Origin: Malus domestica
Taxonomy: Eukaryota; Streptophyta; Magnoliopsida; Rosales; Rosaceae
Reading direction: 5' to 3'
NCBI RefSeq assembly: GCF_042453785.1
Contig: NC_091667.1
Location: 33,844,001-33,908,000 of the forward strand
DNA: 64,000 nt
Shown: positions 17,360 through 59,009 of the stretch, piece by piece
Layout: the number at the start of each line of letters is the position of its first letter
Numbering within the stretch: the first letter of the stretch is position 1
Notes under the pieces: model-generated
What the model was told of the DNA's origin: nothing
What the model saw: the letters and a program-made list of their open reading frames with translations, nothing else
Database searches by the model: none
Translations under genes and position numbers: made by a program

Positions 17360-17538
17360 TCGTAGGCAATCGCCCTTGAGCACCTATAAGTGGCCATCTG
17401 GACCTGTTTGTAGTTCATTATGTTAGTCTAGATATCGTTCCACCTCAATTCTCGTAGGCAATCGCCCTGAGCACCTATAAGTGGCCACCTGGACCTGTTT
17501 GTAGTTCATTATGTTAGTCTAGATATCGTTCCACCTCA
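17360..17538. repeat. ~90-bp tandem duplication in the spacer repeat
   Basis: The stretch from tctcgtaggcaatcgccct to cgttccacctca occurs twice in succession (about 17360-17449 and 17450-17538). The other spacer-repeat copies have it once. Confidence 0.85.
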
Positions 17539-17625
17539 AAAGTTATATCATGATATGTGTCATTACAATTAAACGATAGATGTAAACATTGTAAAAAAAA
17601 AAAAATTAGATGAAATAAACAAAAG

Positions 17626-39971: not shown

Positions 39972-40519
39972 CAACAACAACAACAAAGCATTTTCCCACT
40001 AAGTGGGGTCGGCTATATGAATTCTAGAACGTCATTGAGCTCAATTATGTGTCATGTCCTCCGTTAGATCCAAGTACTCTGAGTCTTTTCTTAGAGTCTC
40101 TTCCAAAGTTTTCCTAGGTCTTCCTCTACCCCTTTGGCCTTGGACCTCTATCCCGTGGTCGCATCTTCTAACCGAAGCGTCAGTAGGTCTTCCTTGCACA
40201 TGTCCAAACCACCGTAATCGATTTTCTCTCATCTTTCCTTCAATTTCGGGTACTCCTACTTTACCTCGGATATCCTTATTCCTAATCTTATCATTTCTCG
40301 TGTGCCCACATATCCAACGAAGCATCCTCATCTCCGCTACACCTATTTTTTGTACGTGTTGATGCTTCACCGCCCAACATTCCGTGCCATACAGCATCGC
40401 TGGCCTTATTGTCATCCTATAAAATTTTCCCTTGAGCTTCAGTGACATACGGCGGTCACACAACACACCAGATGCACTCTTCCACTTCATCCATCCAACT
40501 TGTATTCTATGGTTGAGGT
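39972..40519 (-). mobile_element. RTE-type LINE, 3' part (split by the gypsy insertion)
   Basis: The minus-strand frame encodes the C-terminal end of the RT ORF (LNHRIQVGWMKWKSASGVLC, LYGTECWAVKHQHVQK, RENRLRWFGHVQGRPTDA, GRGRPRKTLEETL). The element ends in a (TTG)4-type tail, seen here as caacaacaacaacaa at 39972-39986. It is flanked by ttattgtgacgtttgta (39955-39971), repeated with one mismatch at 59010-59026 beyond the other half. The reading is interrupted at 40519 and resumes at 56276. Confidence 0.88.
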
Positions 40520-41036
40520 TGTTGATGCACAAAATCAGCGAAGACTTTGGTACAACAGAAAGTGTCAGGTTTTGTGACCTTCGCTTGGTTGCTTCGGTCA
40601 CTAGTGAGGATAAGTACGTAAATGAATAGAGACAGAGAAGCAAACACAGGATGTACGTGGTTCACCCAGATTGGCTACGTCTACGGAGTAGAGGAGTTCT
40701 CATTAATTGTGAAGGGTTTACACAAATACATAGGTTCAAGCTCTGGTTTAGTGAGTTCTAGTGAATAGTTTAGTACAAAATGACATTAGAGATTATTATG
40801 GGAGAATGATCTCTATTTATAGAAGAGAGTTTCTAGTTTTGTTCTAATATTGACACATGTCGTGTTGTGATTGGCTTCTGATGTTGACACGTGTCGTGCT
40901 GTGATTGGCTTCTGATGTCGACACGTGTCGCATTGTGATTGGCCTTCTGGTTGAAGGGAAACTCTTCTGGGTCCTTGACGGTATAACGTTGACCGGTGCT
41001 CAGTAGTTTCGGGATTAGTCAAGTATGGTACAAACA
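40520..41036 (-). repeat. Outer LTR, 3' side of the compound element
   Basis: 517 bp, read on the plus strand from tgttgatgcaca to atggtacaaaca. By eye it differs from 55754-56270 at only two positions (gtctacgg/gtccacgg and attattatgg/attattgtgg). Confidence 0.93.
40806..40965 (-). promoter_or_regulatory. LTR U3 promoter: TATA box and three G-box/CCAAT units
   Basis: On the minus strand, three ~33-bp units each carry a CCAAT box (CCAATCACA) and a palindrome, twice GACACGTGTC (G-box core CACGTG) and once GACATGTGTC. A TATAAATAG box follows (40812-40820). The same array is in the other outer LTR (~56042-56199). G-boxes are bound by bZIP/bHLH factors such as HY5, PIF and ABF types; actual activity is unknown. 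Confidence 0.7.
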
Positions 41037-43240
41037 GTGCTTCCCTAAGTTCCCGAGTGAGGGAAGCTCCTCGGTTGGGGACTTGCAAGATCCAAGCCGC
41101 TGAGTAATCACGAAACTTCTAAGTACCGAGGTGTGGTATCGTCTTCACTTGCCTTATCTTTCTCATAGGTAGATGTGGCATCTTCTCTGGAAGTACGTTT
41201 CCTCCATCCAGGGGTGGTATCTTTAACCGATGAAGATGCACAAGGTAATGTATCAATTTCACTTGAAGCTTACTTGTAGTTTCGGGCTTGGTCAAGTGCG
41301 ATACAAACCCTATAGTATGAGTCCCTCAAGTCGCCGAGCTAGGAGATCTGCCGAAAGAGGTGACAGACAAGGTAAGCAGTCAAACTTCCAAGTAAGCAAC
41401 CCAGGATCAGAGGTTTGACTTCGGCTTCCGGTTGATTGTTCTCCTTCTCCTTGTCTCTCATTCAACTGCCAGGATAAGGAGAAGCAAATGGATAAGAGAT
41501 GATATGAGATACTTTTGCTTTTGAAGAAGTAACTTTCCACAGGCTTATTCTTGAACTGTGCTGGAGGGTTTTCTGGTGCCCTTCAGAGTATAAGGCCGAC
41601 TCAAGAATTTGAGGGTCAAAACAAGTCCATCAAATCTAGAGTACGTTCGACCTTGATGATATGAGATACTTTTGCTGTTGATGGAATAATGAATGTGGTA
41701 TGGAAAGGTGTCGTGCTGTAGTGATCTGTTTCAGCTCACCGTTGAACCTTCTGCTTCAATCTTTTGCATGGCAGAAGTGGTGTGCAACCTTTGCATTTAA
41801 ATGGTCCTTCAGAACATTCCTTCATAGTGACTCATCCACGCTTGGCAGCTTCAGTGTAAAGAGCCAATATTTGATCAACTGTCATGAGGTATTTACCGGT
41901 GGAATTCGTGACCTTGACAGCAGTTGAGGATGAGTACTCGAGAGCAATGCTAAGTAAGCAACCAGGCAAAGGCTCCAGGCAGTCAGTTCCAAATTGGAGG
42001 TTTGATTTCAGGTTCCGACTGACTGCTCTCTTTCTCCTTGTCCTGCAGGTGTGGACAAGGACAAAGACAAAGACAGGGAGAAAGCATGATATGGGATACT
42101 CTTGCTTTCGACCCTGATGATATGAGATACTCTTGTTCTTGGTGTGGCTTATTTGCTGAGGTATTATCGGGGGGAAATAAAGCTGAGTATTTCGAGAGGT
42201 TATGTTGAGGGTGCCTTCTCGAATGCGAGAAAGGGTTGAGCATTTTTGCAGGTTTGCCTGTCCGTTGAGGAGAGAGGTCAATGTATATAGGGATTTCCCA
42301 ATAACAAGTAGTAATGCTATTCCTTTACCCTTCTTGGTCACAGCAATGTAGTGGGAGCTGCCAGCTTCACGTGTTTTAATTTTGTCAGAGCACTTTGAAA
42401 AAGTGGTATGTGGTATCTGGAAAGCTGATGTTACGTGTGAAGATTACAGACAAGCTTTATCTAAGGAAATCTGGCTTTCGAAGTTCTGAGAGTTGTGCCT
42501 CTTCGGTTTTCGAACAAGCAATCCCGTCGAGGATCTGACTCTCGAGATTCGGAAAGCAGTGCTACTCCGGTTTTTTAGAAAGTAATTATGTTGGGAGTCT
42601 TTTCTCGAATGTGAGTAAAGGTTGGACGTTCTTGCCAACCTGTCTTGCCGCAAAACACGGAGGTCGACACACATAGGGACTTTCCAGTTGTCAAGCAGTG
42701 GTGCTGTTCCTTTACCCTTATGGGTAATAGTAGGGTAGCTGGAACTTCGAAATTCTCGTGCCTAAACTTTGTCAGAGATCTTTGACAAAGTTATATGTGG
42801 TACCCGAGGAGTTGATGGTGCATATGGAGAGCGGTGATTGAACAGTAAGATTCACGTGCTTTCTACTTCACCAGAAATCTTCGACAGATTGCCCGTAATT
42901 TCCGCAAAGCTGAGTGTGCATGTGACATGTGCTGACGAGGCTGAAAAAGCAGGTGCTTCTTCGATTTCTGAGATCGGCCCTCGTGGTCTCTGAGCAGCCC
43001 AGCTTTTGAGAAAGCAAACGCCTCTTCGATTTCTGAGATCGGCCCTCGTGGTCTCTGAGCAGCCCAGCTTTTGAGAAAGCAAACGGCTCTTCGATTTCTG
43101 AAGCTCCGTCGAGTGCAGATTTTTATAGAGGCTGGCATTAAGTTCCACAGCACACTTGAATCTCTACCAGTAGAAGCTCATTTCTTGCACTTCTAAGATC
43201 TTGATTTGTCTGACCTCTTCCTTCTTCAACACATTTGAAA
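41037..43240 (-). other. Unit B 3' region, non-coding
   Basis: Repetitive sequence with recurring tatgagatact(c/t)ttgctt and gagtgagggaagctcctcgg motifs. Parts resemble the region right of the middle LTR (47035-47170), consistent with a shared 3' untranslated region of the retrotransposon family. Confidence 0.55.
42952..43108. repeat. 60-bp tandem repeat
   Basis: A unit containing cgatttctgagatcggccct and gcagcccagcttttgagaaa is repeated twice plus a partial third copy. Confidence 0.9.
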
Positions 43241-43612
43241 ATGTCTGGACCCTCCGACCGTCGTTTTGACTTGAACCTTGGAGAAGAGACAGCCACGCCT
43301 TCTCCAGACAACATATGGCGCCCATCCTTCATATCCCATACTGGTCCTCTTACCGTTGGGGATTCTGTGATGAAGAATGATATGACCGCTGCAGTGGTGG
43401 CCAGGAACCTTTTCACTCCCAAAGATAACAGACTACTTTCCAAACGGTCTGATGAGTTGGCTGTTAAGGACTCTCTGGCTCTTAGTGTTCAGTGTGCAGG
43501 TTCTGTGTCTAATATGGCCCAACGCCTATTTGCTAGAACCCGCCAAGTTGTGATTTTTGTTGGGAAAAACGGGAGAGTGTCGGTGCACTCACAGAGAGAC
43601 GCAGAGATCTGA
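43241..43612 (+). CDS. Opposite-strand ORF of the non-autonomous element (truncated)
   Basis: ATG at 43241. The frame begins MSGPSDRRFDLNLGEE and includes SHTGPLTVGDSVMKND and RLLSKRSDELAVKDSLALSV, then MAQRLFARTRQV. It then runs into the element leader and stops at 43612. I recall similar hypothetical proteins in Rosaceae repeats, with a coiled-coil continuation after RTRQV; that continuation is missing here. It runs antisense to gag-pol. No function is known to me. The sequence looks protein-coding rather than random, with balanced composition and no repeats. Confidence 0.5.
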   Translation: MSGPSDRRFDLNLGEETATPSPDNIWRPSFISHTGPLTVGDSVMKNDMTAAVVARNLFTPKDNRLLSKRSDELAVKDSLALSVQCAGSVSNMAQRLFARTRQVVIFVGKNGRVSVHSQRDAEI

Positions 43613-43742
43613 TGAAAATGAGATGATGGTTTGATGGGTTTTTTCTGGGTTCTTTTTGCAGATACACGGGGAAGATTGTGAAGGTTTCACGGTGGTGTGA
43701 TGAAAGATTGAAAGAGAACCGATGTAACTTTTCGTGTCGATT

Positions 43743-43760
43743 CCCACAGACGGCGCCAAA
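43743..43760 (-). promoter_or_regulatory. Primer-binding site next to LTR subtype 2
   Basis: Minus-strand TTTGGCGCCGTCTGTGGG directly follows the CA end of the LTR at 43761-44093. The identical site follows the LTRs at 46442 and 55754. Confidence 0.75.
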
Positions 43761-44093
43761 TGTTGATGCACAAAACCGGAATGTCTTGGAACAACGTAAA
43801 TCCGACCGTGAATCTGCATGAAATGTAAATAACACAAGAGTTATCGTGGTTCACCCCAATGTTTGGGCTACGTCCACACTGATTGTATTGTATTTCTCTG
43901 AGAAATGAAGGAGAGAGTGTTGTTGTATTTGTGAGGGTATTGCCCTTTGTTGGGTTCACTGAGTCCCATTTGTGAGGGGGGGAAGGAGTCCCCTTTTATA
44001 GAATAAGGGGCTCCTCCTTTTACATAATCATATGAGCTGGGTAATGAGGCCCAATGTATCAAAGTCTGAGGCCCATTATGTGTGGTACCAACA
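43761..44093 (-). repeat. LTR, subtype 2 (333 bp)
   Basis: Read on the plus strand it begins tgttgatgcacaaaaccgg and ends gtggtaccaaca. It shares only the terminal ~15 bp with the other LTRs. A primer-binding site lies on its left and a purine tract (cttgggggactac on the minus strand) on its right, so it serves as 5' LTR for the left part and 3' LTR for the right part of unit B. Confidence 0.8.
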
Positions 44094-44254
44094 GTAGTCC
44101 CCCAAGTCTTCAGTCAAGAGAGTCTTTTGGCTGGAGAATTCAAATCCAATCCATGTACGGGCCGAATTGGCCAGATGTCTTGAACCAGTACTCAACCTAA
44201 GGTAATGCTCAACATAAAGCAATACTCGGCTAAAGGTATCACACGTTACGAGAC

Positions 44255-44405
44255 TGCTCGGCTGGAGGCGATGCTCGTTGCGAGGCTGCTCGGCTAGAGG
44301 CTATGCTCGCGGTGAGGCATTTGCTCGGCTGGAGGCGATGCTCATTGCAAGGCGGCTCGGCTAGAGGCTATGCTCGCTGCGAGGCGGCTCGGCTCGTGGT
44401 ATTCC
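44255..44405. repeat. ~32-bp tandem repeats (gctcggctggaggcgatgct type)
   Basis: About five degenerate copies alternate between gctcggctagaggctatgct and gctcggctggaggcgatgct. A second set of (a/g)tcgggtc repeats follows at 44465-44550. Confidence 0.85.
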
Positions 44406-44550
44406 TTATTGCAAGTATCTACTTTATGTCGACATGCACTCAGTATGAGTTGATTCTCGACATGACTCGGGTCTGCTTGTCGGGTTCACATATTGGGTCT
44501 ATGTGTCGGATCCGCGGATCGGGTCCGCAAGTCGGGTCTTTGAATCGGGG

Positions 44551-45299
44551 CCATACGTAGGGGCATCGAGTTGGGACTATCTGTAGGGTCATCGAGTTGG
44601 GTACAGGCACATAGGTGTCCCAATAAGCGAATGTCCGAGCAAGTGGATGTCCGGTCAGACAAGAGATCACCACAAGCACGTGGCTCATCAGTCTATAAGT
44701 TGGTAGACCTCGTTAATCAGCAACAATGTTGATCAGTGGACCTAGTTGCTCAATAATTCCTGACAATAAATGACAGTATAATCATGAGCGTATAATGAAT
44801 AAATATAATAAATACGTAAAAGAAATATGGTAACAACAATTATTTAATATGTATATTTCTTATAAGTGTAAAACCTTGCCATGCGTGTTATAGCATAGTT
44901 TTAGGTTATAAAAGTGGATTAGTTCTTTTGGATTTGAGTTGATAATTTCAACATAATTTAAAATGCATGGGTGTGGGAACCCACATCCACTTTCAACATC
45001 TATTGTAAACCCACCATCAGTTAGTGGAAAACATTCAAAAATAAAATAAAGATATCATCATTGTTCCACCATCACACAATAACCAGTACCATTTGATAAA
45101 TATTAAATAATAAAAACAATTGAATTAGGTGAAGACTTATCTCTTTTTCACGTGTGGATCTGGTGGATCTGACCGACAAGGGCTCTTCCCTTATCTTTTC
45201 TTTTTCAAAATTATCATGAGTGTGGAAAAAAACAGATGGGTATGGAAATGATGTTGTTGGAGACTTTCTTCCCCACTGAGTCAAAAGATAAACAGCATG
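44551..45299. other. Unit B internal, unrecognised
   Basis: AT-rich with no family recognised. 45060-45300 resembles an untranslated or intron sequence adjoining the captured fragments. Confidence 0.4.
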
Positions 45300-45474
45300 C
45301 AAGGCCTGGCTCTTTCAGCCATTTTCTTCCCCGAGAGCTTGCTACCCCCAATCCGGTTGCATCCGCATTGTTCCATCTGCCTGGAAAACCATGGTCAGAG
45401 TGTCGGAGGGCGAAACGGGAACAGAAATGGGCTGCTCCCGCTGCTCGCTGCTGAAGAGCACTCATGTCACGGTG

Positions 45475-45651
45475 CTGATGGCTGACTGTTCCCGTTGGAT
45501 GGTCTGTGTCTGGAGCAACCAATGCTCTGGGCATATATGGTTTAAGAAGTTTGGTTTCCAAGTCACTCCTGACTCTCCTCTAAAAAATGACAGGAGCATA
45601 TGGAGCTTGTGTGGTCAGTGCTTCATTCTCCGTCACAGCACTCGCAGCCAT
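45475..45651 (-). pseudogene. Captured caleosin (peroxygenase) N-terminal fragment
   Basis: From an ATG at 45649-45651 the minus strand reads MAASAVTENEALTTQAPYAP, then an in-frame TAG where an Arg-rich stretch would be. It continues with PYMPRALVAPDTDHPTGT, then SHQHRDMSALQQ. This is the characteristic N-terminus of caleosins, the lipid-droplet Ca2+-binding peroxygenases. The EF-hand, proline knot and haem histidines are absent. After the DMSALQQ region (~45480) the sequence is no longer recognisable. Confidence 0.7.
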
Positions 45652-45714
45652 AATTGATACGGTTTTCTGCGATCTTCTCTGACCTTCTTGCTCTCTCTTT
45701 CTCTTTAGACAAGG

Positions 45715-45973
45715 GGTGGACGAGAGAGAAACGGTGGTGCTCGATCTTGGTGACGGTGTTGTTTCAGGTAAGCACAGTGAGCTCCAGAGCCAGGCCAGCG
45801 AGCGTGATGAAGTTCTTCGTCTTGGGCACGCACACCGGCTGCCGGAAGATTTCCAAAGCGATGAGAATCACGGTACGACAGGTTTTGCAGAGAGGGACGG
45901 CGTCGATGGTCTCCTGCATAGTCCAGAAATCGCCGGAGCCATCATGCGCAGCCCTGAGAACGAGAGCCGCCAT
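45715..45973 (-). pseudogene. Captured pectinesterase (PME31-like) 5' exon fragment
   Basis: From the ATG at 45973 the minus strand reads ...AHDGSGDFWTMQETIDAVPL, then FRQPVCVPKTKNFITLAG and TVLT. A TGA follows where Trp is expected, then NNTVTKIEHH in the same frame. That order is the N-terminal region of PME31-type pectinesterases, cell-wall enzymes that demethylesterify pectin. The catalytic Asp/Arg region is absent. Its ~70 bp of upstream sequence looks like captured 5' UTR. Confidence 0.75.
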
Positions 45974-46059
45974 TTCTCACGATCTGGGAACTCTCCGAAG
46001 TGGGAATTTGTTAAAGCTTGTGTCTTTGCATGCAGTGAGTTTTATCTTCGTTTCTGCAG

Positions 46060-46248
46060 AAGGGTTTGAACTGGGTTATTGAGATTCTCAAGTGACTCAA
46101 CAACAACGGTTAAGTCTGAGGTTTGAGTGGTTTTGATGGCGGCAGTGTGCTTGGCCTTCTTGTCATTGTCGGAGTCGGACGAAGACGAGGAGTGGTGGCT
46201 GTAGATCTTGTCCATCAGCGACGCGGCAGTTGGTTCTGGCTCCGCCAT
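46060..46248 (-). pseudogene. Captured fragment, possibly reticulon-like N-terminus
   Basis: The minus strand reads MAEPEPTAASLMDKIYSHHS, then SSSSDSDNDKK. This resembles the acidic serine-rich N-terminus of plant reticulon-like B proteins, which shape ER tubules. The reticulon membrane domain is missing, and the composition is low in information, so assignment is tentative. Confidence 0.4.
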
Positions 46249-46299
46249 GGGTTCTCAGAGCGAAGAGAAGGAGAAAGAGAGGACAGAAAAAAAAAAAAG

Positions 46300-46441
46300 A
46301 GGCGGATGATGTGATCGGTCCGTGAGTTTTGGTTTTCTGCAGATTCACGGTGGAGGTTATGAGGGTCTCACGGTGGTGAGATGAAAAATTGAGAGAGAAC
46401 CGACACAGCTTTTCGTATCAATTCCCACAGACGGCGCCAAA
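46300..46441 (-). promoter_or_regulatory. Leader and primer-binding site of unit B
   Basis: The leader at 46340-46423 closely matches that at 43640-43742 (tgcagattcacggtggagg / tgcagatacacggggaag; gagagaaccga), although their LTRs differ. The primer-binding site is at 46424-46441. Confidence 0.7.
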
Positions 46442-46954
46442 TGTTGATGCACAAAATCAGCGAAGACTTTGGTACAACAGAAAGTGTCAGGTTTTGTGAC
46501 CTTCGCTTGGTTGCTTCGGTCACTAGTGAGGATAAGTACGTAAATGAATAGAGACAGAGAAGCAAACACAGGATGTACGTGGTTCACCCAGATTGGCTAC
46601 GTCCACGGAGTAGAGGAGTTCTTATTAGTAGTGAAGGGCTTACACAAGTACAAAGGATCAAACTCTCAATTTAGTGAGTTCTTGTGAATGATTTAATCCA
46701 AAATGGCATTAGCCCATATTGTGGGGGAATGACCCCTATTTATAGAAAAACTTGTAGCTTTGTCACATTGACATGTGTCATGTTATGATTGGTTCTTGAT
46801 GTCGACACGTGCTGCGCTCTGATTGGCTTCTAATCTTGACACGTGTCGAGTAGTGATTGGCCTCCTGGTCGGAGGGGAACTCTTCTGGGTCCTTGACAGT
46901 ATAGCGTTGGCCGGTGCTCGGTAGTTTCGGGATTGGTCAAGTATGGTACAAACA
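46442..46954 (-). repeat. Middle LTR
   Basis: 513 bp. The first ~180 bp on the plus strand (R/U5 side of the minus-strand element) is identical to the right outer LTR. The remaining ~330 bp (U3 side) is clearly divergent, for example the G-box units are reduced and altered. Confidence 0.9.
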
Positions 46955-47944
46955 CCTTCTTCATAAAGTTCTTTGAATTTTTGCTTTTGTTGAAAACTGT
47001 ATTGTTGAAGCTTTGTGAGTGAAGCATGTAGTTTGAGGTAGTGTTCCCTTAATTTCCCGAGTGAGGAAAACTTCTCGGTTGGAGACTTGATAAATCCAAG
47101 TCACTGAGTGGTTGTGAGACTGCCGAGTATCAAGGTGCAGTAGCATATGGTGGGAGTCCCCCAAGTCTTCAGGCGAAGAGAGTTGCCGAATGAGGTGTCT
47201 CGCGTGTTACTAATTTGTCAAAGTAACGAATCCTTGTTTCGATGTCACACATTCGTATATGCTTTATCTAAAAATATTTCCAACTTTTGTGTGTTTGATG
47301 CTGCATGCTATTAACTAGACAAGATCAAGTGCAATTAGTAGCTTTTCTCTCTTTTTCATCTTTTCTTTGGTGGAATTGCTTTTCGTTTCCACTAATCAGC
47401 CTGAGTGGATGCAAGATAACACCATTCTCTATAGCTCAGATTGCAAAGTCGTCTTCATGAAAGTTGTTCCTTATCTTGTGAACTACAACATATCCAAATT
47501 TGAGATCCATTGGAGTAGTACAACTTTAGAAATTCAAGTATGATGAGTAACTGTTCATCAATGTTCTGTTAATCCATCAGACTTGTTGTGAGCTTCGAAA
47601 CTCCATTTTCTCTTGTTCAGATCAATATACTTTCTTCATGGAAGTTGTTCCTCATCATCTCTTCCATAACATATCAAAAATTCAGAACAAACTAACGGTT
47701 GAATATTTCCAGATCTTCGAAACACCGCAGCAGCTTTGAAGCTTGCAGAAATCTGACCGTCATGTTTGGAGCTTCAACACTCTAACTTCCGTCGCTCAAA
47801 TAGAAAAATTTCCTTCGTGAAAGTTGTTCATCTGCTCAAGAACTATAAGATGTCCAAAATTCAGCTCCACTGGAATTAGCTTCGCACTATCTTGATGAAG
47901 AGTGTGTGAAGCTTTTATGTGTTTTAGTGTTGAAATTTGGTATT

Positions 47945-48196
47945 GTAGGTGAAGCTTTGGGGTTGAAGCTTGATAGGTGAAGCTTTATAGGTGAAGCTTT
48001 GGTGTTGAAGCTTTATAGGTGAAGCTTTGTGTTTGAAGCTTTATAGGTGAAGCTTTGGGGTTGAAGCTTGATAGGTGAAGCTTTGTGTTTGAAGCTTTAT
48101 AGGTGAAGCTTTGGTGTTGAAGCTTGATAGGTGAAGCTTTGTGTTGAAGCTTTATAGGTGAAGCTTTGGGGTTGAAGCTTTATAGGTGAAGCTTTT
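47945..48196. repeat. Short tandem array of ttgaagctttataggtgaag
   Basis: About nine units of ~28-30 bp alternate between gaagctttggggttgaagct and gaagcttgataggtgaagct forms. HindIII-like AAGCTT is repeated in each. Confidence 0.9.
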
Positions 48197-48386
48197 GTTG
48201 GCACCATAAATTGATTGTGCTTCGCACTATCTTGATGAACATAGTGCGAAGCTTTGGAGATTTATACTTGTCCTCCATTGATGAAGATTTTGTTGGCACC
48301 ATAAATTGATTGTGCTTCGCACTATCTTGATGAACATAGTACGAAGCTTTTGAGATTGATATTTGTCCTCCATTGATGAAGCTTTT
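48197..48386. repeat. ~95-bp tandem duplication
   Basis: A unit beginning ttggcaccataaattgattg and continuing through gcttcgcactatcttgatga to cctccattgatgaag is repeated twice, followed by a poly-T run at 48413-48439. Confidence 0.9.
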
Positions 48387-48899
48387 GTTGAATTTCCCAA
48401 TTTCCAATTTCCTTTTTTTTTTTTTTTTTTTTTTTTTTGGGAAAACTAGAAATTTGAAAATGTGGGAGAGACAACGTATACAAATTTTGCTTCCATACTG
48501 TTAAGCGAGAGATTGTGATGCAAGCCACATCTTGTAGTAGTCGAAGGTTTGGATGAACCATATAAATTGAATTTGCTTCGAACAGTCTTGATCAAAAGCG
48601 TTTGAAGCGTTCTATGAGTTGTAGTGTTTGCATTGTTACAGAGGAGAAATGTCTGAAGCAGATGCAAGAGGGCTGAAGAGCTTGATCTTCGTATACCATG
48701 CATTGAAGCCATTGTTGGCTTGCAATAAGACTTTGTTGGTGACTATAGCTCTTGTTAGGCATAAGTGCTCCCCTAGTTGAGTTGTAAAGCTTGATAGTTT
48801 TTTATTATTTGTGAATGCTAGGAGTTCACATGTACAAGTTGTACCACTCGTCTTCTGGTTAATGGAATGAATGGTAGGTTGCTTTCATCACGTGGTTGG

Positions 48900-49200
48900 T
48901 GGTACGAATGTGAATTCCTTAATCACCTTTCATCACATTTCATCACCTGGTTGGTGACATGAAGGAGAGTACGCGTTGTACATTTCATCACCTGGTTGGT
49001 GGCATGAAGGAAAGTACGCGTTGTACATTTCATCACCTGGTTGGTGGCATGAAGATGAGTTCCTTCTTCACCTGATTGGTGATAAGGGTGGCAAGTTTCC
49101 AAATAATATTAGAGTACGGGTTGTACATTTCATCACCTAGTTGGTGGTACGAAGGTGAGTTCCTTCATCACCTAATTGGTGAGAATAAGGGCAAGGTGTC
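48900..49200. repeat. Tandem repeats of catcacctggttggtg
   Basis: Six or more copies of a 20-60 bp unit (tttcatcacctggttggtgg, with or without catgaagg and gtacgcgttgtaca). Confidence 0.85.
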
Positions 49201-49261
49201 GAGGCACATTGTGGCAAATGTCGAATGACACAAAGTGTGTTGAACCCTTTCGAAGCACAGT

Positions 49262-49427
49262 TGGCTTATGTATGGATGTGTTGGAATGTATGATGTTTAT
49301 GCATGAATGTGTTGGAATGTATAATGTTTATGTATGAATGTATTGGAATGTATGATGTTTATGTATGAATGTGTTGGAATGTATGATGTTTATGTATGAA
49401 TGTGTTGGAATGTATGATGTAGATCCT
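49262..49427. repeat. ~33-bp tandem repeat (tgtgttggaatgtatgatgt)
   Basis: Five near-identical units of gtatgaatgtgttggaatg plus tatgatgttta. Confidence 0.93.
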
Positions 49428-49637
49428 TTGTATAGTCTTGTTGACACATACTTATATTTTGTTTTGTATTGGAAACATTTGCGTTGAAGCTTCAACACTT
49501 GAGTGTTTCATTGCTCAGAATGGAAAAGAGTTTATGGCCGAGTTGGCTAAATCACCTTTTTATTGAATTCATACCAAATGGTCTTTGTTACATAGGATGC
49601 CGAACGGCTGTAGCTTAACACTTGTACAATGTGAGTC

Positions 49638-52600
49638 TTATTTGTAATAGTACTTCAAGTGGTCAGCATTCCATGGATGGCCAAGGGTCTTGCCGTCGGA
49701 GTTTCTGAGCTTGTAGGAGCCAGGGCGACTGATGCCGACGACCTCGAACGGTCCGTCCCAGTTAGGACTGAGTGTTCCTTCACTCGGGACTCTATCACAG
49801 AGTAATCTTTTCTTCAGTACCCAGTCTCCCACTTTGAAAGAGCGAGGTTTGACCCTTGAGTCGTAGTAGTTGGAGATGCGCTGCTTGTAGGCGACATTCC
49901 TCAGGTGAGCCTGATTTCTGTGTTCCTCGACTAGATCCAGGTTGAGGGTGAGTTGCTTGTCGTTCTCACTCTGTATGTAGTTCTGGATTCGGTATGTTGC
50001 TTGCTCAAGCTCAACTGGGACAACTGCTTCTGTACCAAAAGCAAGTGAGAATGGAGTTTCTCCTGTGGAAGTCCGATATGAAGTGCGGTATGACCAAAGG
50101 ACTTGGGGTACGAATTCTGGCCAACAACCTTTAGCTTTGTCCAAGCTAGTTTTCAGAGTGCGCTTGATTATTTTGTTAACGGCCTCGACTTGTCCGTTAG
50201 ACTGGGGATGGGCTGGAGAGGCAAAACATAAGTTGATGTTGAACTTAGAGCAGAACATCTTGAACTTCTTGTTGTCGAACTGCCGCCCATTGTCCGTGAC
50301 TATCGCATTGGGAATGCCGAATCTGCAGAGGATGTTCTTCCATACGAATTCTTCTATTTTTCCCTCAGTAATGGTTGCCAAGGGTTATACTTCAGCCCAC
50401 TTTGTGAAGTAGTCAACTGCAACGATTGCATAGCGGACCTTGCCTTTCCCTGCAGGCATTGGGCCGATCAAATCAAGTCCCCATTGGGCGAAGGGCCAAG
50501 GGCTGATCATAGGAGTGAGCGGCTCGGGAGGGGAGTGAGGGATAGTTGCGTAGCGTTGACACTTATCACATGAGCGAGATATTCTGATGGCATCTTGGTG
50601 GAGTGTTGGCCAATAGTATCCTTGGCGAAAAGTCTTGTGAGCTAGGGATCGAGACCCAGCATGATCTCCGCAGACTCCTTCATGTATTTCCCGAAGGACA
50701 ATTTCCGCCTCCGCAGGTGTAAGGCATCTTAGGTATGGCAGGGTGAAACCGCGCTTGTAGAGTTGGTCATTAATGATCAGGTAGCGGGCAGACTTGTATC
50801 GAATCTGCTTAGCTTGGACTTTGTCAATTGGGAGGGTGCCATGAGCAAAGAATTTATAAATTGGGGTGATCCAACTATCTTCTTGTTGTAAATTGTACAC
50901 CTCCGCGACCATGGTGCTTGGTTCTGCCAACAATTCGACATGAATTTTTCTCCCAATCTTGTCTTCCACTGCCGATGCGAGGCGAGCCAAAGCATCTGCA
51001 TGACTGTTTGCCGCTCGAGGAACTTGGGTGATCTGGTAGTGGAAGTGCTTGAGCAAAAGTCGCGTTTGCGCAAGATATGCTGCCATGGAGCTATCCTTAG
51101 CATCAAAGTTGTTTGTGACTTGGTTGACCACTAATTGGGAGTCACTGAAGATATCAATTCGTTTAACCCCAAGGTGTTTGGCCAAACGCAAGCCTGCTAG
51201 AAGGGCTTCGTATTCGGCCTCGTTGTTCGATGCCTTGAATTTGAAACGAAGAGCGTATTCCATCGCCACTTTGTCGGGGGTAGTGAGGACTAATCCTGCT
51301 CCGCAACCCTGTTGGTTGGATGAGCCATCAACATACAGACTCCATGCTGGGGTCGTTGATTCTACTTTCTGAGCTTCCGATGGTAATGAAGCTACTGCTT
51401 CAGGTGTAGGAGCAATGTCAACAGGATATGTGAAGTCGGCGATGAAATCTGCTACTGCTTGACCTTTTTCGGCTGGTTTTGGTTGGTAGGAGATGTCAAA
51501 CTCACCCAATGCTATCGCCCATTTGGTCATTCGTCCAGACGTGTCAGGACTCTGGAGTATCTGTCGAATAGGGTGATTGGTAAGCACGATGATGGCGTGT
51601 GCTTGGAAATAAGGGCGAAGTTTCCGAGCAGACATGACCAATGCTAGAGCTAATTTCTCAATGTTGGAGTATCGTGTCTCCGCATCTTGTAGGGCCTTGC
51701 TAGCGTAGTAGACGGGCCGTTCGACACCACTATCCATTCGAATAAGAACAGAACTGACTGCTGAAGCCGAAACCGATAGATAGATGATGAGAGTGTCACC
51801 AACTTCTGGTTTGGAGAGCAGAGGGGCTTTACTCATGTACTCTTTGAGGTTCCTGAATGCCTTGGCACATTCATCCGTCCATGTAATGTACTTCTTATTT
51901 CCCTTGAGTGCTTTGAAGAAAGGAGCACATCTGTCTGTGGCCTTAGAGATGAATCTGGTTAAGGCTGCCACCTTGCCAGTAAGGCTTTGGATGTCTTTTG
52001 AAGTTATTGGCTCTTTCATGTCGAGGATTGCTTTGATCTTTTCAGGGTTAGCTTCAATGCCTCGTTGGCTAATCATGAAGCCTAAGAATTTGCCAGAGCC
52101 CACGCCGAAAGCACATTTGTTGGGGTTCAACCTCATTCGATACCTTTTTAGAATGGTGAAAGTTTCAGATAGGTTGGTGATGTGTTGGTCAGCATGTTTG
52201 CTTTTGACTAGCATATCATCAACGTAAACTTCCATGCTCTTCCCAATTTGTTCGGCGAACATTGAATTGACCAGTCTCTGATAAGTTGCTCCTGCATTCT
52301 TTAGGCCGAAAGGCATGACTTTATAGCAATATAGTCCCCTGTCAGTAGTGAAGGTCGTGTGTTCTTGGTCTGAGGGGTTCATGAGGATTTGGTTGTATCC
52401 TGAATAAGCGTTCATGAAGCTCAAGAGCTCACACCCTGCCGTAGAGTCTATAAGTCTATCAATGAGAGGAAAGGGGAAACTATCCTTCGGGCATCCTTTG
52501 TTTAGGTCGGTGTAGTCGACACACATTCTCCACAAGACCTTTTGAAGCAGGAGACTTTCCTTGGTCGGATTTTTCTTAACAAGGACAACATTTGCTACCC

Positions 52601-53999
52601 ATGTTGGGTAATTGACTTCACGGACGAAGCTTATGTCCTTGAGTTTTTCAACTTCTGCTTTCATCGCCTCGTATCGTTCAACATCATAAGATCTTCGCTT
52701 CTGTTTTACTGGTTTGGTCTTGGGATCAATACTCAAGTGGTGACAGATGATATCGGGAGAGATGCCCGACATATCTTTATATGACCAAGCGAAGACCTCG
52801 ACGTTCTCTTGCAAAAAGGAGATCAGCGACAACCGAATGGGTGGTGACAAAGTGGTGCCAATATTCACCATGCGGTCTGGATGGTCTTTGGAGATAGAGA
52901 TCTTCTCTAACTCTTCAGCGGGTTGTGCTTGCTGGGTGAATGAGTCATCTCGAGGGTCGTCGGGTTGACTGTTGCCATCCTGAAGACCCGAGTTGGATTC
53001 ATCTGGACTGGTCTTTACGACTTGGTTATGTATAAAGAGAGTCTCCTTGGGGACATGCAGGTGTTGTTGTTTGACTGAAGTGTTGTAACATGATCGAGCA
53101 CTAAGTTGATCTCCCCTGATGTACCCATTGCCGAAAGGGGTTGGAAACTTCATCAACAACATATGTGTGGATACCATGGCCTTGAGATCATTGATGCCTG
53201 TGCGCCCAAAGATGACATTGTATGCCGTCGGGCAGTTGACCACTAGGAAGTTAGTGGTAATAGTAGCTGTGTAGGGGCCTGTACCAATGGTGAAGGGTAA
53301 GTGTATACTCCCTAAAGGTTGCACGATATCGCCAGAGAAGCTTATCAGAGGAGAAATCGAGCGATCGAGCAAGTGTTCAGCTACATTAAGTGCCTTGAAA
53401 GCTTCAGCAAACATGATATTGACTGAAGCACCTGTGTCTATCAGGATTCGTTTCACATCAAAATTTGCTATGTGAGCTTCCACGATCAGCGGGTCATTGT
53501 GAGGGTAGATGATACCTCTTTCTTCCTCAGGGTAGAAACATATTGGATCCCAGTTAGGCTTTTGATACTTGCCTCCTCTGATGTCTTCCACGTGAAACAC
53601 TTGATGGCCAGGTCTCAAAGTTCGTTCACTGCTTTTCATGGCCCTATTGGAAGATTCAGACATGGGTGTGCCGCCGCTTATGGAATATATCACATTCACC
53701 TGGCGTTGGTTACGGTTATCCCTTGGAGGGTGAAGGAGGAACTGATCAATTTTTCCTTCACGTGCCAAAGCTTCAATATGGTCACGGAGGATAATGCACT
53801 TCTCACTATCATGGCCATTATACTCGTGGTAGCAGCAAAACATGCCCGTGTTCTTCGTGGACTTGTAATCTGGCTGTCTTGGCTTTGGCTTTGGTATCAG
53901 GTGAGCTATACTGGGGTAGATGGCAGCACATGTAGCATTCAAAGAGGTGTATGTCTCATACCTCGGGGTAGGGCCTGTCTTGACACGTGATTGGCCCAT
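49638..53999 (-). pseudogene. Tat-lineage gypsy pol: protease, RT, RNase H, aRNase H, integrase
   Basis: One frame interrupted by an in-frame TAA at 50385-50387, directly after YFTKWAEV. Order: zinc knuckle (CCYHEYNGHDSEKC), protease (LIDTGASVNIMF), RT (CVDYTDLNKGCPKDSFPFP, FTTDRGLYCYKVMPFGLKNA, box YVDD), RNase H (YYASKALQDAETRYSNIEKL), then a second, archaeal-type RNase H (SLYVDGSSNQQGCGAGLVL, SNNEAEYEALLAGL, FSDSQLVV) that marks Tat elements. Integrase has an HHCC zinc finger (CDKCQR), GLDLIGPMP, and, beyond the stop, TDNGRQFDN and the Glu-bearing NGQVEAVNK. In RT motif A the usual LDAYSGYNQI reads MNAYSGYNQI, so the catalytic Asp is Asn. No chromodomain seen. The copy cannot supply active RT by itself. 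Confidence 0.93.
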
Positions 54000-54134
54000 T
54001 GCGTTGACTGCCTGGGGGCGGGCATTATTGTGACGATATCCTGAGTTATCGCGATAGTGCCCCTTGTTCTTTTTATTAAAATGAGATTGGTGAGGATGAA
54101 AGTCCTTCCTTTTGCCCTGAGATTGATATGTCTG

Positions 54135-55646
54135 CTAACTTGGCGAAGCATTAAATGAGGCAGGGGGGTGCGCTGCTACCATTTGGAAGGTTGAGGTCTT
54201 TTCATTCGGTTGGATCTGGCCTCCACTCCCTACTTGCTGATAAGGGGTGACTGTAGGGGGTTTCCCTTGATATGTCCTTGCCTCGGCGGAGGCATGGTTG
54301 TAAGCTTGTGTCATCACCTCAGAGTAAGTCTTCCAAGTGTTGGCATTGATCATGTACTTGAAGAAACAGTCACGTAAGCCTGCAGTGAAAGCCTTGAGGG
54401 CGGTCTTGTCATCTGCCTCAGCGCAGCGAGAATACTCATGGCTGAAGCGGCCAGCGTACTTTCGTAATGACTCGTCCGGCTTCTGGTGAATAGTGTACAA
54501 GTCATCTGCGGAATGCAAGCGATCGGTCTGGAAGATGTGTTGAGAGACAAACAGCTTTCTCAACTCTTCAAATGAGTCTACTGTCTCAGGTGGAAGACGG
54601 CAATACCAGTTTAAAGCTCCGCCAGAGAGGGTGGAGGGGAAGAGAATGCACCGTTCTTCGTCGGTGTGTCCCCGGTATACCATGGTGGACTCAAAGAGGT
54701 TAAGGTGTTCAATCGGGTCTTCCCTTCCAGTATAGAGCTGTAAGTCAAGCTTCTGCTTTGTCTTCGCTTGGAGGGGAGTGTTGAGGATCCTTCTTGTGAG
54801 AGGGCCAGGCCTGGGTTGGTTCCAGTCAGGTATCTCGGCTTGACGTTCAGCCTTCAGCTTGTTTACTTCCTCAAGGAGCTGCAGGACAAGGGGGTCCTGA
54901 GTGGAGTCGTGCACCACTGAAGTTTTCTTCTTTAAGTCCCCATCGCCTCTTGGAAGTAGGAAAGTTTGATCAAGATAGCGTGATCTTTCTCTGGACTCGC
55001 CACACTGACTTCTAGAGTGAGTATGTCGGAATGTTTCCGAGTCCCCAGTACCTTCATATTCTTCTAGGACTTGTTGCCCCTTCTCTAGATTGGCGGCTGG
55101 CCTGGGTCGTGGAAGAGGACCGAGTCTTTCAGAAACCCTTGGGTCATTGATCTTCGAGCTTATGTGGATGGGATTCTCTCGACGTTGCTTTAGGAAGTCT
55201 CGACAATCGCGATAGACAGCTTTTGATCCTTCCACATCCTCTGTGAGGAGGTGTTTTCCTCTACTTCTCCTGCTTCGGGTTGAAGCAGCTGGGTTGAGAG
55301 AAGTCTCATGTTGATTATCACATTGATGTGTAGCTCGATCCCTATCAGGGATGTCCGTGTCGGATATCGGCGACCCTCCGTGTTGGGGGGCATTCAGTTG
55401 ATTGTTGACCTCGACAGGGGCGACGAGCTTGTGTGTTTGAGCCTGCCTAACCTCGTGAAGCATCTCGAAAAGTTTTTCATATTGTTCCTGGAGGACTTCA
55501 TTCTTCATCGCTATCTTGTTGTTCTGAACCTCTAGCTCATCGACTTTAGCTTGAAGAGTAACTCTATTTCCTTCCTGCTTTCGTTGCTTCATACTAGGTC
55601 CAACAGGGGTGTCATTCTGTGTGCTGTGGCTTCTTTCGCTCCCCAT
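54135..55646 (-). CDS. Gypsy gag protein
   Basis: 503 aa from ATG at 55646 (MGSERSHSTQNDTPVGP), 107 bp downstream of the LTR; the frame is open through the LTR but that part is leader. A coiled-coil-prone region (VDELEVQNNKIAMKNEVLQE) is followed by a basic linker. The retrotransposon gag domain follows (TGREDPIEHLNLFESTMVYR, LSGGALNWYCRLPP, QKPDESLRKYAGRFSHEYSR). The frame ends in TAG at 54135-54137. The same frame continues without further stops into the zinc knuckle and pol, so gag and pol form one polyprotein frame broken by a single amber codon. Confidence 0.88.
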   Translation of the reverse strand: MGSERSHSTQNDTPVGPSMKQRKQEGNRVTLQAKVDELEVQNNKIAMKNEVLQEQYEKLFEMLHEVRQAQTHKLVAPVEVNNQLNAPQHGGSPISDTDIPDRDRATHQCDNQHETSLNPAASTRSRRSRGKHLLTEDVEGSKAVYRDCRDFLKQRRENPIHISSKINDPRVSERLGPLPRPRPAANLEKGQQVLEEYEGTGDSETFRHTHSRSQCGESRERSRYLDQTFLLPRGDGDLKKKTSVVHDSTQDPLVLQLLEEVNKLKAERQAEIPDWNQPRPGPLTRRILNTPLQAKTKQKLDLQLYTGREDPIEHLNLFESTMVYRGHTDEERCILFPSTLSGGALNWYCRLPPETVDSFEELRKLFVSQHIFQTDRLHSADDLYTIHQKPDESLRKYAGRFSHEYSRCAEADDKTALKAFTAGLRDCFFKYMINANTWKTYSEVMTQAYNHASAEARTYQGKPPTVTPYQQVGSGGQIQPNEKTSTFQMVAAHPPASFNASPS

Positions 55647-55735
55647 ATCGGCGAGAGATGCTTGGCCAAAAGAGAGTGTACGAGCGGTGGAAACCAGCTT
55701 GACAAAGCTGAAGAGAGTGGGAATAAGTGTCGTTT

Positions 55736-55753
55736 CCCACAGACGGCGCCAAA
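55736..55753 (-). promoter_or_regulatory. Primer-binding site of unit A
   Basis: Minus-strand TTTGGCGCCGTCTGTGGG adjoins the LTR end. The TGGCGCC start fits the non-methionine tRNA priming often described for Tat/Athila elements; the exact tRNA was not determined. Confidence 0.8.
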
Positions 55754-56270
55754 TGTTGATGCACAAAATCAGCGAAGACTTTGGTACAACAGAAAGTGTC
55801 AGGTTTTGTGACCTTCGCTTGGTTGCTTCGGTCACTAGTGAGGATAAGTACGTAAATGAATAGAGACAGAGAAGCAAACACAGGATGTACGTGGTTCACC
55901 CAGATTGGCTACGTCCACGGAGTAGAGGAGTTCTCATTAATTGTGAAGGGTTTACACAAATACATAGGTTCAAGCTCTGGTTTAGTGAGTTCTAGTGAAT
56001 AGTTTAGTACAAAATGACATTAGAGATTATTGTGGGAGAATGATCTCTATTTATAGAAGAGAGTTTCTAGTTTTGTTCTAATATTGACACATGTCGTGTT
56101 GTGATTGGCTTCTGATGTTGACACGTGTCGTGCTGTGATTGGCTTCTGATGTCGACACGTGTCGCATTGTGATTGGCCTTCTGGTTGAAGGGAAACTCTT
56201 CTGGGTCCTTGACGGTATAACGTTGACCGGTGCTCAGTAGTTTCGGGATTAGTCAAGTATGGTACAAACA
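55754..56270 (-). repeat. Outer LTR, 5' side of the compound element
   Basis: 517 bp with TG...CA ends, nearly identical to 40520-41036. TATA box (minus TATAAATAG) at 56047-56055. Confidence 0.93.
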
Positions 56271-56275: not shown

Positions 56276-59009
56276 CTTCATCTAATTCTCCTTTTTTTTT
56301 CCAAGATAGATCCTAGGTAGTGAAAGCGGTCGCTCTTTGGTACTTCCTGATCTCCGATCCTCACCTCTAACTTATTTGGGCCTCCATTTGCACTGAACTT
56401 GCACTCCATATATTCTGTCTTTGATCGACTTAGGCGAAGACTTTTAGATTCCAACACTTCTCTCTAAAGGTTAAGCTTCATATTTACCCATTCCTAAGTT
56501 TCATCTATCAACATTATATCGTCTGCGAAAAGCATACACCAAGGAATATCATCTTGAATATGTCCCGTTAACTCATCATTTACCAATCCAAAAAGATAAA
56601 GACTTAAGGATGAGCCTTGATGTAACTCTACAGTTATGGGGAAGCTTTCAGTTTGTCCTTCATGAGTTCTTACGGCAGCCTTTGCTCCATCATACATATC
56701 TTTTATAGCTTGGATATATGCTACTCATACTCATTTATTCTGTAAAATCCTCCAAAGAATGTCTCTTGGGACCCTATCATACGTTTTTTCCAAATCTATA
56801 AAGACCATGTGTAAATCTTTTTTTCTATCTCTATATCTTTCCATCAATCTTCGTAAGAGATAGATTGCCTCCATAGTTGAGCGCCCTGGCATGAACCCGA
56901 ATTGGTTGTCCGAAACCAGTGTCTCTTGCCTCAACCTATGCTCAATGACTATTTCCCAAAGCTTCATTGTATGACTCATTAACTTAATACCCCTATAGTT
57001 CATGCAATTTTTTACGTCGCCCTTATTCTTGTAGATAGGCACCAAAGTGCTCTTTCGCCACTCATTTGGCATCTTCTTCGTTTTCAAAATCCTATTGAAA
57101 AAGTCTGTGACCCATGTTATACATGTCTCTCCCAAGACTTTCCACACTTCGATCGGTATATCATTTAGGCCCAATGCTTTTCTATGCTTCATCTTTTTCA
57201 AAGCTACAACCACTTCTTCTTTCTTGATTCGACGGTAAAATTAGTAGTTTCTACACTATTCTGAGTTACTCAATTCCCCTAAAGAAGTACTCATTTCATG
57301 TCCTTCATTGAAAAGATTATGAAAATAACCTCTCCATATGTCTTTGACTGCGTTCTATGTAGTAAGAACATTTCCATCCTCATCATTGATGCACCTCACT
57401 TGGTTTAGGTCTCTTGTCTTCTTTTCCCTTGCTCTAGCTAGTTTATAGATATCTAACTCTCATTCTTTGGTATCTAATCCCTTATACATATCGTCATAAG
57501 CCGCTAGCTTAACTTCTCTCATGGCTTTCTTTGCCTCCTGCTTCGCTATTCTATACATTTCACCATTTTCATTGGTCATATCCTTGTATAAGGCTTTACA
57601 ACATTCCTTCTTAGCCTTCACCTTTGTTTTTACCTCTTTATTCCACCACCAAGATTCCTTTTGGTGTGGAGCAAAACCCTTGGACTCTCCTAATACCTCT
57701 TTTGCTACTTTTCGGATATAATTAGCCATGGATACCCACCTCTGGCTAGCTTCCCCTTCTTTATCCCACACGCATTGGGTGATTACTTTATCTTTGAAAA
57801 TGGCATGTTTTTCTCCTTTTAGATTCCACCATCTAGTCTTTGGGCACTTCCAGGTCTTGTTTTTTTCTCTCTCTATTTTGATATGTACATCCATCACCAA
57901 CAAGCGATGTTGATTAGCCAAGTTCTCTCCCGGTATAACTTTGCAATCCTTACAAGTTATATGATCCCGTTCCTCATTAGAAGAAAATCTATTTGTATTT
58001 TTGACGACTCACTCTTGTAGGTGATCACATGTTCTTCTATTTTCTTAAAGAAGGTGTTGGCTAAGAAGAGATCGTATGCCATTGCAAAATCCAAGATGGC
58101 TTCCTCATCCTCGTTTCTCTCCCCAAAACCATGGCCACCATGAAAACCTCCATAGTTGCCTGTCTCCTTGCCCACGTGTCCATTTAAATCTCCTCTTATA
58201 AATACATTCTCCTTCTGAGCAATTCCTTGCACCAAGTCTCCAAGATCTTCCCAAAATTTCTCCTTCAAACTCGTATACAACCCTACTTGAGGTGCGTATG
58301 CACTAATCACATTGATGAGTTCTTGTCCTATTACAATCTTGATTGCCATAATTCTATCTCCTACCCTCTTGACATCTACAACATCTTGTGTCAAGGTCTT
58401 GTCCACGATGATGCCAACACCGTTTCTCGTTCTATTTGTGCTCAAATACCTAAGTTTTATAGATCATTTGCCTTAAGACAAACCTACTTAGTTTCTTGTA
58501 GGCACCTAATATTTATCTTTCTCCTCACCATAACTTCCACTACTTCCATAGATTTTCCCGTTAAGGTTCCTATATTCCACGTTCCTATACGCATTCTACT
58601 CTCTTGAACTCTAGCCTTATGTCCTAGCTTCTTCTCCCTCCCCCGTCTAATATGATCAAAGTACTTTTTTTGTGTGTCTTGTGTAAAGTTGATAGGAGCA
58701 TATGCTTCCAAACAACTTTGAGTGGAGTCGTTCAAAAAGAAGTTTCGATGACCCCCTTGCTCATTTAACACTGCATTCGGATGCCGATGGAGATACAACG
58801 ACCCTTGCTCACTTATCACTGTGCTCGGGCCACACAACACGCCACTTACAGGTGACACCCTAGCTTTAGCGCGATTTCGTTTTGGATTCATTTTCATAAG
58901 GATTCGATATAACCTAGGAGTGTCGGTTGTCGATTACCTGACGCCCTCCCCCTCCTCCTTTATCCAAGCTTGGAACCGGCAATGTAAGATAAACTTACAC
59001 ATGCGGAGT
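56276..59009 (-). mobile_element. RTE-type LINE, 5' part: endonuclease and reverse transcriptase (degenerate)
   Basis: Minus-strand order: apurinic-like endonuclease (MRIGTWNIGTLTGKSMEVVE at ~58590; GVGIIVDKTL, VISAYAPQVG, RGDLNGHVG, ITYKSESSKIQIDFLLM to 57957), a linker domain (57921-57460), then RT ([85 protein letters not shown], box FADD at ~56525). Several stops and frameshifts break the frame. Minus the gypsy insertion, the LINE is ~3.28 kb, full RTE length, with a 17-bp target duplication. It is inactive. Confidence 0.9.

Follow-up and report, generated by a model that had tools for sequence, protein, structure and literature searches.

The locus and its chimeric element

The window analysed here is the whole of a 64,000-nucleotide stretch of the apple (Malus domestica) genome (contig NC_091667.1, forward strand; C7:33844001-33908000 in our numbering), and positions given without a contig refer to it. 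On its minus strand, at 43762-46954, lies one copy of a small long terminal repeat (LTR) retrotransposon that carries a mosaic of host-gene pieces. A preliminary description had reported 5' exons of two to three host genes at 45475-46248 and had proposed serial capture by a Tat-type non-autonomous element. The genome searched comprises 651 Mb in 19 contigs (C numbers). With 45475-46248 as the query, the search yielded 24 matches: the window itself, three further full-length copies of the chain of host-gene pieces (on C9, C5 and C13), four copies with only its caleosin side (on C11, C9, C13 and C10) and short matches elsewhere. The window copy and loci L009, L010 and L011 make up subfamily S1.

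Along the plus strand, the inverted primer-binding site GGCGCCAAA precedes the LTR terminus TGTTGATGC, which places the element on the minus strand. The hallmarks of LTR retrotransposons are present, namely paired LTRs with TG..CA ends, a primer-binding site (PBS) after the 5' LTR and a polypurine tract before the 3' LTR; the two LTRs of the window copy differ in type. The element is composed of the following parts:

46443-46954, minus strand: 5' LTR, A-type (the LTR family of the window's Tat-type element, here element A); 87-89% alike to the LTRs at 40520-41036 and 55754-56270
46421-46442, minus strand: PBS region (TTTGGCGCCGTCTGTGGGAA...), common to A-type and C-type elements
46282-46420, minus strand: element leader, C-type; 85-96% alike to L009, L010 and L011, 86% to 43653-43775
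46281-45366, minus strand: host-gene chain, with donors matched elsewhere in the same genome
44094-45365, minus strand: 3' tail, common to varying depth to subfamilies with other host genes; polypurine tract at its end, at about 44095-44112
43762-44093, minus strand: 3' LTR, C-type; the PBS and leader of another element adjoin on the low side (shared LTR)

Positions 43653-43761, adjoining the C-type LTR (43762-44093) on its low side, hold a PBS and a C-type leader, so that two elements share one LTR and the window copy belongs to a complex insertion. By eye, no gag-pol-like frame was found among the open reading frames of at least 80 amino acids in 44094-46441 (the whole internal region was not put through Pfam), and the element appears to be non-autonomous, without recognised gag-pol. 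Together with a 5' LTR and PBS 87-89% like those of element A, this agrees with the proposed serial capture by a Tat-type non-autonomous element.

The captured host-gene chain

In element direction the chain reads RTNLB-like, DRB, RING-H2, 5' untranslated region (UTR) of a C17 gene, PME31-like, B-box, caleosin exons 1 and 2, and the C17 gene again. The pieces placed in it are all in sense orientation relative to the element, and at least seven donors are represented:

46128-46281, minus strand: reticulon-like (RTNLB) 5'UTR, ATG and part of exon 1; 89% to the C7:34771795 region (L020), 79% to the C1 copy; donor with Pfam Reticulon
46080-46140, minus strand: exon piece of a double-stranded RNA-binding (DRB) gene; 92% to C11:20590816; donor with dsrm domain
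46057-46088, minus strand: RING-H2 piece, the weakest assignment; 50-bp match to C8:16528735 (84%, E 1e-5); donor with zf-RING_2
46035-46056, minus strand: 5'UTR part of the C17 plastid-type gene (first outer part of a capture split in two); match 46056-46025, 29 of 32 bases to L038:487-518
45733-46037, minus strand: PME31-like pectinesterase 5'UTR, ATG and exon 1; 305-bp match to C9:3549061 at 90%, 85% to the C17 copy; Pfam Pectinesterase
45701-45741, minus strand: B-box zinc-finger (BBX) exon 1 piece; 95% over 41 bp to C15:1134563; donor with zf-B_box
45537-45704, minus strand: caleosin 5'UTR, ATG and exon 1; 94% to C16:21769506 (L018), 90% to the C13 copy
45447-45536, minus strand: caleosin exon 2, joined at the exact splice point; 96% to L018:3165-3257; reads ...AAACCAT^ATATGCCC...
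45366-45454, minus strand: C17 plastid-type gene, end of exon 1 joined to 15 nt from the start of exon 2 (second outer part); 75 bp at 92%, followed by AGGCAGATGGAAC, 13 of 13 at the start of exon 2

Pfam recognised Caleosin (in donor exon 2), Pectinesterase, Reticulon, dsrm, zf-B_box and zf-RING_2 on the donor pieces and gave no match for the C17 gene, whose label "plastid-type" is our reading of its N-terminus. The donors termed PME31 and RTNLB are those we take to bear these names. Duplicate copies of donor genes pair on contigs C9/C17, C13/C16, C3/C11, C12/C14 and C1/C7. The 50-bp RING-H2 match overruns into the next piece; the plastid-type 5'UTR, with its match 46056-46025 (E 1e-7, computed against the 1.5-kb locus alone), accounts better for the final part.

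The caleosin, PME31-type and reticulon-like fragments named in the preliminary description are real and lie in element (minus) orientation, with donors at C16:21769.5k (94%/96%), C9:3549.1k (90%) and C7:34771.8k (89%); these are host genes, and the matches extend beyond low-complexity sequence. The count of two to three genes was too low, as the chain is longer and draws on more donors. That each fragment keeps its ATG and ends after about the first exon holds for the ATG of the RTNLB, PME and caleosin pieces. It does not hold for all boundaries, which were read by eye: the caleosin piece continues through exon 1 into exon 2, the PME piece ends 2 nt short of the end of exon 1, and the RTNLB piece ends within exon 1. 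Likewise, "first-exon capture" describes the 5' parts of unrelated genes, but neither the DRB, RING and B-box pieces, which lack a start, nor the spliced exon 1-exon 2 pieces.

For the three fragments named earlier the E values range from 9e-37 to 6e-115, and the chain is present at four separate loci (window, L009, L010 and L011), which rules out chance similarity. That the mosaic reflects an assembly error or chance is accordingly a practically negligible explanation, refuted by the recurrence of identical joins at separate loci, four of S1 and four of S2, as well as by E values down to 6e-115.

Spliced templates

In the caleosin donor, AAACCAT|GTATG and CAG|ATATGCCC bound an intron of about 490 bp, which is absent from the element, where the sequence is AAACCATATATGCCC. 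An intron of the C17 gene, about 420 bp long and bounded by TTTTCCAG|GTAAAC and AG|GCAGATGG, is likewise missing, and the element has TTTTCCAGGCAGATGG. Including the subfamilies described below, seven introns in five donors are absent by base-level reading: those of caleosin and the C17 gene (S1), RPL14 (S2), NMP1 (S3) and, three times, APC6 (S4). At the NMP1 splice the length fits, and 4 of the 17 bases around the join differ. An eighth absent intron, that of tubulin (S5), follows from coordinates only. No kept intron was seen where captured pieces cross splice sites (7/7 gone at base level), so the donor search and intron check suggested earlier yielded both the donor genes and the removal of their introns. 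This precise loss is the main evidence that RNA served as the template.

APC6 exon 4 was found in the longer locus L065 behind the third intron (22 of 23 bases) and not in the short locus L068. A candidate intron in the S2 donor L051 was dropped from the count: its 144-bp gap lacks GT-AG ends and looks exonic, and L048 is the better donor (contiguous 125 bp, 96%).

Joins and nesting

At the seven window joins the donors share 9, 9, 2, 3, 9, 3 and 8 bases, in sum 43. Four of the seven joins share 8-9 identical bases, e.g., RTNLB/DRB with 9 and PME/BBX with a 9-base overlap. In 20,000 random joins of the same donor exons the summed sharing averaged 4.8 and reached at most 18 bases. The simulation does not reproduce how the script looked for the longest run around a join, which tilts the comparison somewhat towards the observation; two hand-corrected counts lower the observed sum. 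The latter are those of the joins RING/C17 and C17/PME (2 and 3 bases), which were counted by eye from the alignment, as the script's longest run lay off the join.

Short shared bases would also be left by microhomology-based DNA repair, and a DNA-level capture by a Helitron, a Pack-MULE or repair, with later uptake of the finished block by an LTR element, has to be weighed. Helitron- and Pack-MULE-type elements do make multi-gene chimeras, but DNA-level capture keeps introns, and their loss in seven of seven cases largely refutes this origin (Helitron or MULE ends were not searched for). Moreover, the subfamilies replaced the 5' part separately, with both LTRs seen in three of four (S2, S3 and S4). 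We regard an origin at the DNA level as very improbable. Pack-type capture is treated in a review (PMC13317346).

The PME-BBX-caleosin block is flanked on both sides by parts of the C17 gene. The captures are therefore nested, and the block took the place of the interior of an older capture. Capture starting at the mRNA 5' end was considered and not adopted: by eye, a GA-rich tract of the 5'UTR, situated well below a TATA-like motif, contains the caleosin join, and the RTNLB and APC6 joins sit in CT tracts, which we count against a jump at the cap end.

Relatives with other cargo

Relatives share the tail up to about window 44804, 45246, 45347, 45459 or 45789 and then diverge, in a step-wise replacement of the 5' part. 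Subfamily S2 (L012-L015), whose own 5' halves are 98.6-99.9% alike, keeps the chain to 45789, inside PME. Beyond this point come a spliced antisense piece of RPL14 (76%), an F-box/LRR-like fragment and part of the L048 gene; the spliced exon 1-exon 2 stretch of RPL14 is antisense in all four near-identical 5' halves. PME stays collinear with its donor across 45789, which makes S2 derived at this point. S3 (L039) departs at about 45347 and holds spliced NMP1, a universal stress protein (USP) and an NFXL2-like piece. S4 (L033) departs at 45459 and contains APC6 exons 1 to 4 without the three introns, while S5 (L040) departs at 45246 with uL4 and a tubulin (alpha by eye). Finally, L069, one member of a larger group, departs at 44804 and carries DUF599- and SAUR-type pieces. 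Pfam or PDB sequences support NMP1, USP, APC6 (as ANAPC3), tubulin, RPL14, uL4, DUF599 and SAUR; the F-box/LRR-like, L048 and NFXL2-like (L060) pieces had no Pfam match and were named by eye.

The tally amounts to 18 donors (S1 seven, S2 three, S3 three, S4 one, S5 two, L069 two). It includes the NFXL2-like L060 and leaves out the L061/L062 piece of S3, which was not shown to be a gene, as well as the unassigned S5 matches at C16, C10 and C8. Seventeen donors are in sense orientation, with L048 judged from its probable frame, and one, RPL14, is antisense. Antisense transcripts, which the preliminary description had envisaged, are accordingly not implied in the window, where all placed pieces are sense; the sole antisense case belongs to a sister subfamily. 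All donors but DUF599 and SAUR (16/18) have a place in the genome, the two of S5 from matches alone.

These relatives bear on whether one particle produced the whole seven-donor chain in a single reverse-transcription cycle. All four S1 copies hold the full chain, even L011, whose LTR pair is only 91.5% alike. Yet sisters hold parts of it, namely the C17 exon piece without PME-BBX-caleosin (S4) or caleosin, BBX and part of PME (S2), and the C17 gene is split around another block; a single cycle is thus unlikely.

Elements also exchange pieces between subfamilies, as follows from L046 (C2:15183876-15187693; 1501-3292). This mosaic consists of a leader, an S2-type 5' block (94%) and, 434 bp on, S3 positions 402-941 (94%), all in one direction.

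When the tail was queried with 44100-45030 and 40 of 438 candidates were scored, nine places reached the query end, 26 stopped at query position 705 (window 44804), one at 659 and four at 570; L009 is absent among them, so that this set is incomplete. The tail up to window 45343 is also shared at C5:3023303, C9:29606391, C3:33929549, C3:22958148 and C5:10782870, none of which is among the matches of the S3 5' half; these five places may hold yet other cargo. The S2 5' half occurs, in addition, at C15:55615648 (L045), in a stretch without a match to the caleosin side of the window chain, and partly at C2:36761274 (L047).

Mobility and mixed LTR types

LTRs were found on most copies read, and LTR pairs and target-site duplications point to mobility of the family. 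The LTR pairs of L013 (424 of 424 aligned bases, 5 gap columns) and L039 (393 of 393) are without mismatch, followed by L009 (98.3%), L033 (96.4%, 47 gap columns) and L011, the most diverged. Since L011 already holds the whole chain, the S1 chain is older than this insertion. Exact 5-bp target-site duplications flank three of the ten copies tested, i.e., L010 (AATTG), L013 (ATCGC) and L033 (AACAT, all in element direction).

L010 (element-oriented 3916-7178) has an A-type 5' LTR of 513 bp and a C'-type 3' LTR of 433 bp, which are 51% alike, within a single 5-bp duplication. The changeover between A and C LTRs lies at the PBS common to both kinds, and the window copy likewise combines an A-type 5' LTR with a 3' LTR of the C kinds. 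This is read most simply as a transfer of plus-strand strong-stop DNA from one kind to the minus strand of the other when both were copied in the same particle, with subsequent gene conversion as an alternative. The 5' LTRs of the window copy and L010 are 99.2% alike, and shared descent of this LTR was considered but not retained, their internal regions being 97.4% alike. Among the best 40 of 2337 candidates scored, 40 of the 41 listed genome matches of the A-type 5' LTR, including the window and L010, are at 99-100%; an LTR this common makes two separate acquisitions as likely. At L033, different LTR types at the two ends were considered and rejected: both are of one type and are 96.4% alike, with a 47-column gap.

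The Tat-type element that surrounds the chimeric element has the following features:

40520-56270, minus strand: Tat-type element A, with the chimeric element inside; LTRs identical at 516 of 518 positions; duplication GAGGT (5 bp, by eye)
54135-55877, minus strand: gag (Pfam)
50385-53999, minus strand: pol (Pfam)
49638-50381, minus strand: integrase part (Pfam)

Tat/Retand elements are recognised by a Ty3/gypsy pol that includes a further RNase H domain. Element A contains RVT_1, RT_RNaseH, RVT_3 (the second RNase H) and Integrase_H2C2, with rve in a separate frame and below the cut-off, and its domain content, rather than a reverse-transcriptase tree, assigns it to this lineage. The integrase core is in a different frame from pol, so that element A is possibly not intact. 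The chimeric element, in which no reverse transcriptase was recognised, is probably linked to the Tat-type lineage, as suggested by its A-type 5' LTR and shared PBS, and the family of element A is its presumable helper. Retand elements are described as having a long region between pol and the 3' LTR and recently active non-autonomous members (PMC11963269), as is the case for element A. Host-gene mosaics were not encountered in this description.

In this region of element A, positions 43235-43612 (plus strand) form an open frame (MSGPSDRRFDLNLGEETATP...) antisense to gag-pol, without a Pfam match; antisense frames between pol and the 3' LTR are described for Retand elements (PMC11963269). The same region contains short tandem-like repeats (gaagctttataggt...) at 47943-48390. 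Element A itself, a recent one, sits in sequence resembling a long interspersed nuclear element (LINE), with LINE-type open reading frames on both sides at 40041-40643 and 56731-58897 (named by eye).

A probable template-switching origin

Repeated reverse-transcriptase template switching onto spliced host mRNAs very probably built the mosaic of this small non-autonomous LTR family. In such a process, element RNA and host mRNAs would enter particles made by a relative that is autonomous and probably of Tat type. The reverse transcriptase, while making the first strand, would copy the 3' tail of the element and then slip to a host mRNA at a few matching bases. Switching would sometimes continue to further mRNAs and then return to the leader beside the PBS. 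The chimera would integrate, and its LTR-driven transcript would provide the template of the next round, in which the 3' modules stay and the 5' part is extended or replaced.

Several observations weigh against this account. The window copy has no 5-bp target-site duplication in its flanks, and its 3' LTR is shared with the neighbouring element. Among the ten copies tested, no exact 5-bp duplication was found on L009, L011, L012, L014, L015, L039 and L040; L039 lacks one despite identical LTRs, one LTR end could not be located at all in some copies, and S5 (L040) showed a 5' LTR only. Three of the seven window joins share merely 2-3 bases. Donor identity ranges from 76 to 96% across all subfamilies, with RPL14 the lowest, and hence the exact donor copies are not proven. 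Particle packaging is a step that we infer, and the antisense RPL14 in S2 is not explained by first-strand switching alone: it calls for a switch while the plus strand was made, or for cDNA joined in another way.

With less assurance, we favour a broader reading in which the family is a standing exon-shuffling device. Its 3' tail and leader would remain constant, while the 5' internal part is repeatedly overwritten by chains of pieces from spliced host mRNAs (about 18 genes in six subfamilies) and blocks are exchanged between subfamilies. The device would be mobilised in trans by the far more abundant Tat-type family, swap LTRs with that family at the shared PBS and have been active until very recently.

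Function of the cargo

The PME and caleosin pieces each contain one in-frame stop. Compared with the donors, the ratio of nonsynonymous to synonymous differences per site (pN/pS), which includes change on the donor branch, is 0.47 for PME, 1.2 for caleosin and 0.35 for RTNLB, which has no stop; the PME donor and its own duplicate give 0.06. RTNLB and DRB are fused in frame over 68 codons, and this frame is open in three of the four S1 copies (window, L009 and L010); L011 has no exact match to the start motif searched for.

The chimera might have been retained for use, either as a small fusion protein or as a source of small RNAs against the donors. The open RTNLB-DRB frame and the low RTNLB ratio are in line with this, and the maize element Bs1 made an expressed chimeric gene (PMC13317346). 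The stops in PME and caleosin and their ratios, as compared with that of the PME duplicates, argue in the opposite direction, and a short open frame in three close copies is no proof of selection. Retention for use is therefore improbable, and we hold with modest confidence that the cargo is passive and without function.

Relation to known systems

This kind of capture is already known, and the number of donors and their nesting represent a striking variant of unusual scale. The nearest named element is the maize LTR retroelement Bs1, which likewise holds several unrelated host genes, with segments of an H+-ATPase, a xylan endohydrolase and a beta-1,3-glucanase gene (PMC13317346). In contrast to Bs1, the apple family, known here from sequence alone, has seven donors in one copy, nested captures and subfamily-specific donor sets. 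In LTR-mediated retroposition, attributed to template switching at microsimilarities (Tan et al. 2016, as cited in PMC5408686), pieces of mRNA join the cDNA of LTR elements at short shared sequences, and repeated switching was foreseen in theory (PMC5408686). The spliced cargo and the short shared bases at the joins are alike; in apple, however, the chains comprise up to seven donors and are inherited and overwritten. Complex LTR elements of the Triticeae also share an LTR, and abnormal template switching was proposed as their origin (Sabot and Schulman 2007, PMC1950507). Those elements fuse two element sequences, whereas here host mRNAs are the main foreign templates. Host genes captured within LTR elements of rice and sorghum are similar in kind and were counted as annotated genes within elements (PMC3726574), an account in which we met no serial mosaic built from short spliced fragments; plant retrocopies flanked by LTR elements include one with a kept intron (PMC4838847).

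Our literature search, partly aimed at apple and Malus, revealed no account of such a family in apple, nor did the literature searched contain serial, nested, multi-donor chains replaced subfamily by subfamily, which is not proof that either is unpublished.

While single captures by plant LTR elements are known, the frequency with which a reverse transcriptase moves among host messages within particles is hard to see. The family constitutes a fossil record of many template moves, in which junctions, donors and, in part, their order are readable in one genome. Questions that would otherwise call for laboratory assays become testable: which mRNAs are packaged, where switches occur, whether captures accumulate and whether the non-autonomous element shares particles with its presumed helper when it is copied. 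For annotation it serves as a warning that fragments resembling caleosin, PME or tubulin in this genome may belong to mobile elements.

Other features of the window

Two further repeat structures lie outside element A. Positions 60177-61311 contain a tandem-like repeat cluster (60425-61040) between inverted arms of 200 bp that are 97% complementary. At 3786-17995, long direct repeats about 8 kb apart are roughly 80-93% alike and probably represent a tandem duplication or repeated elements.
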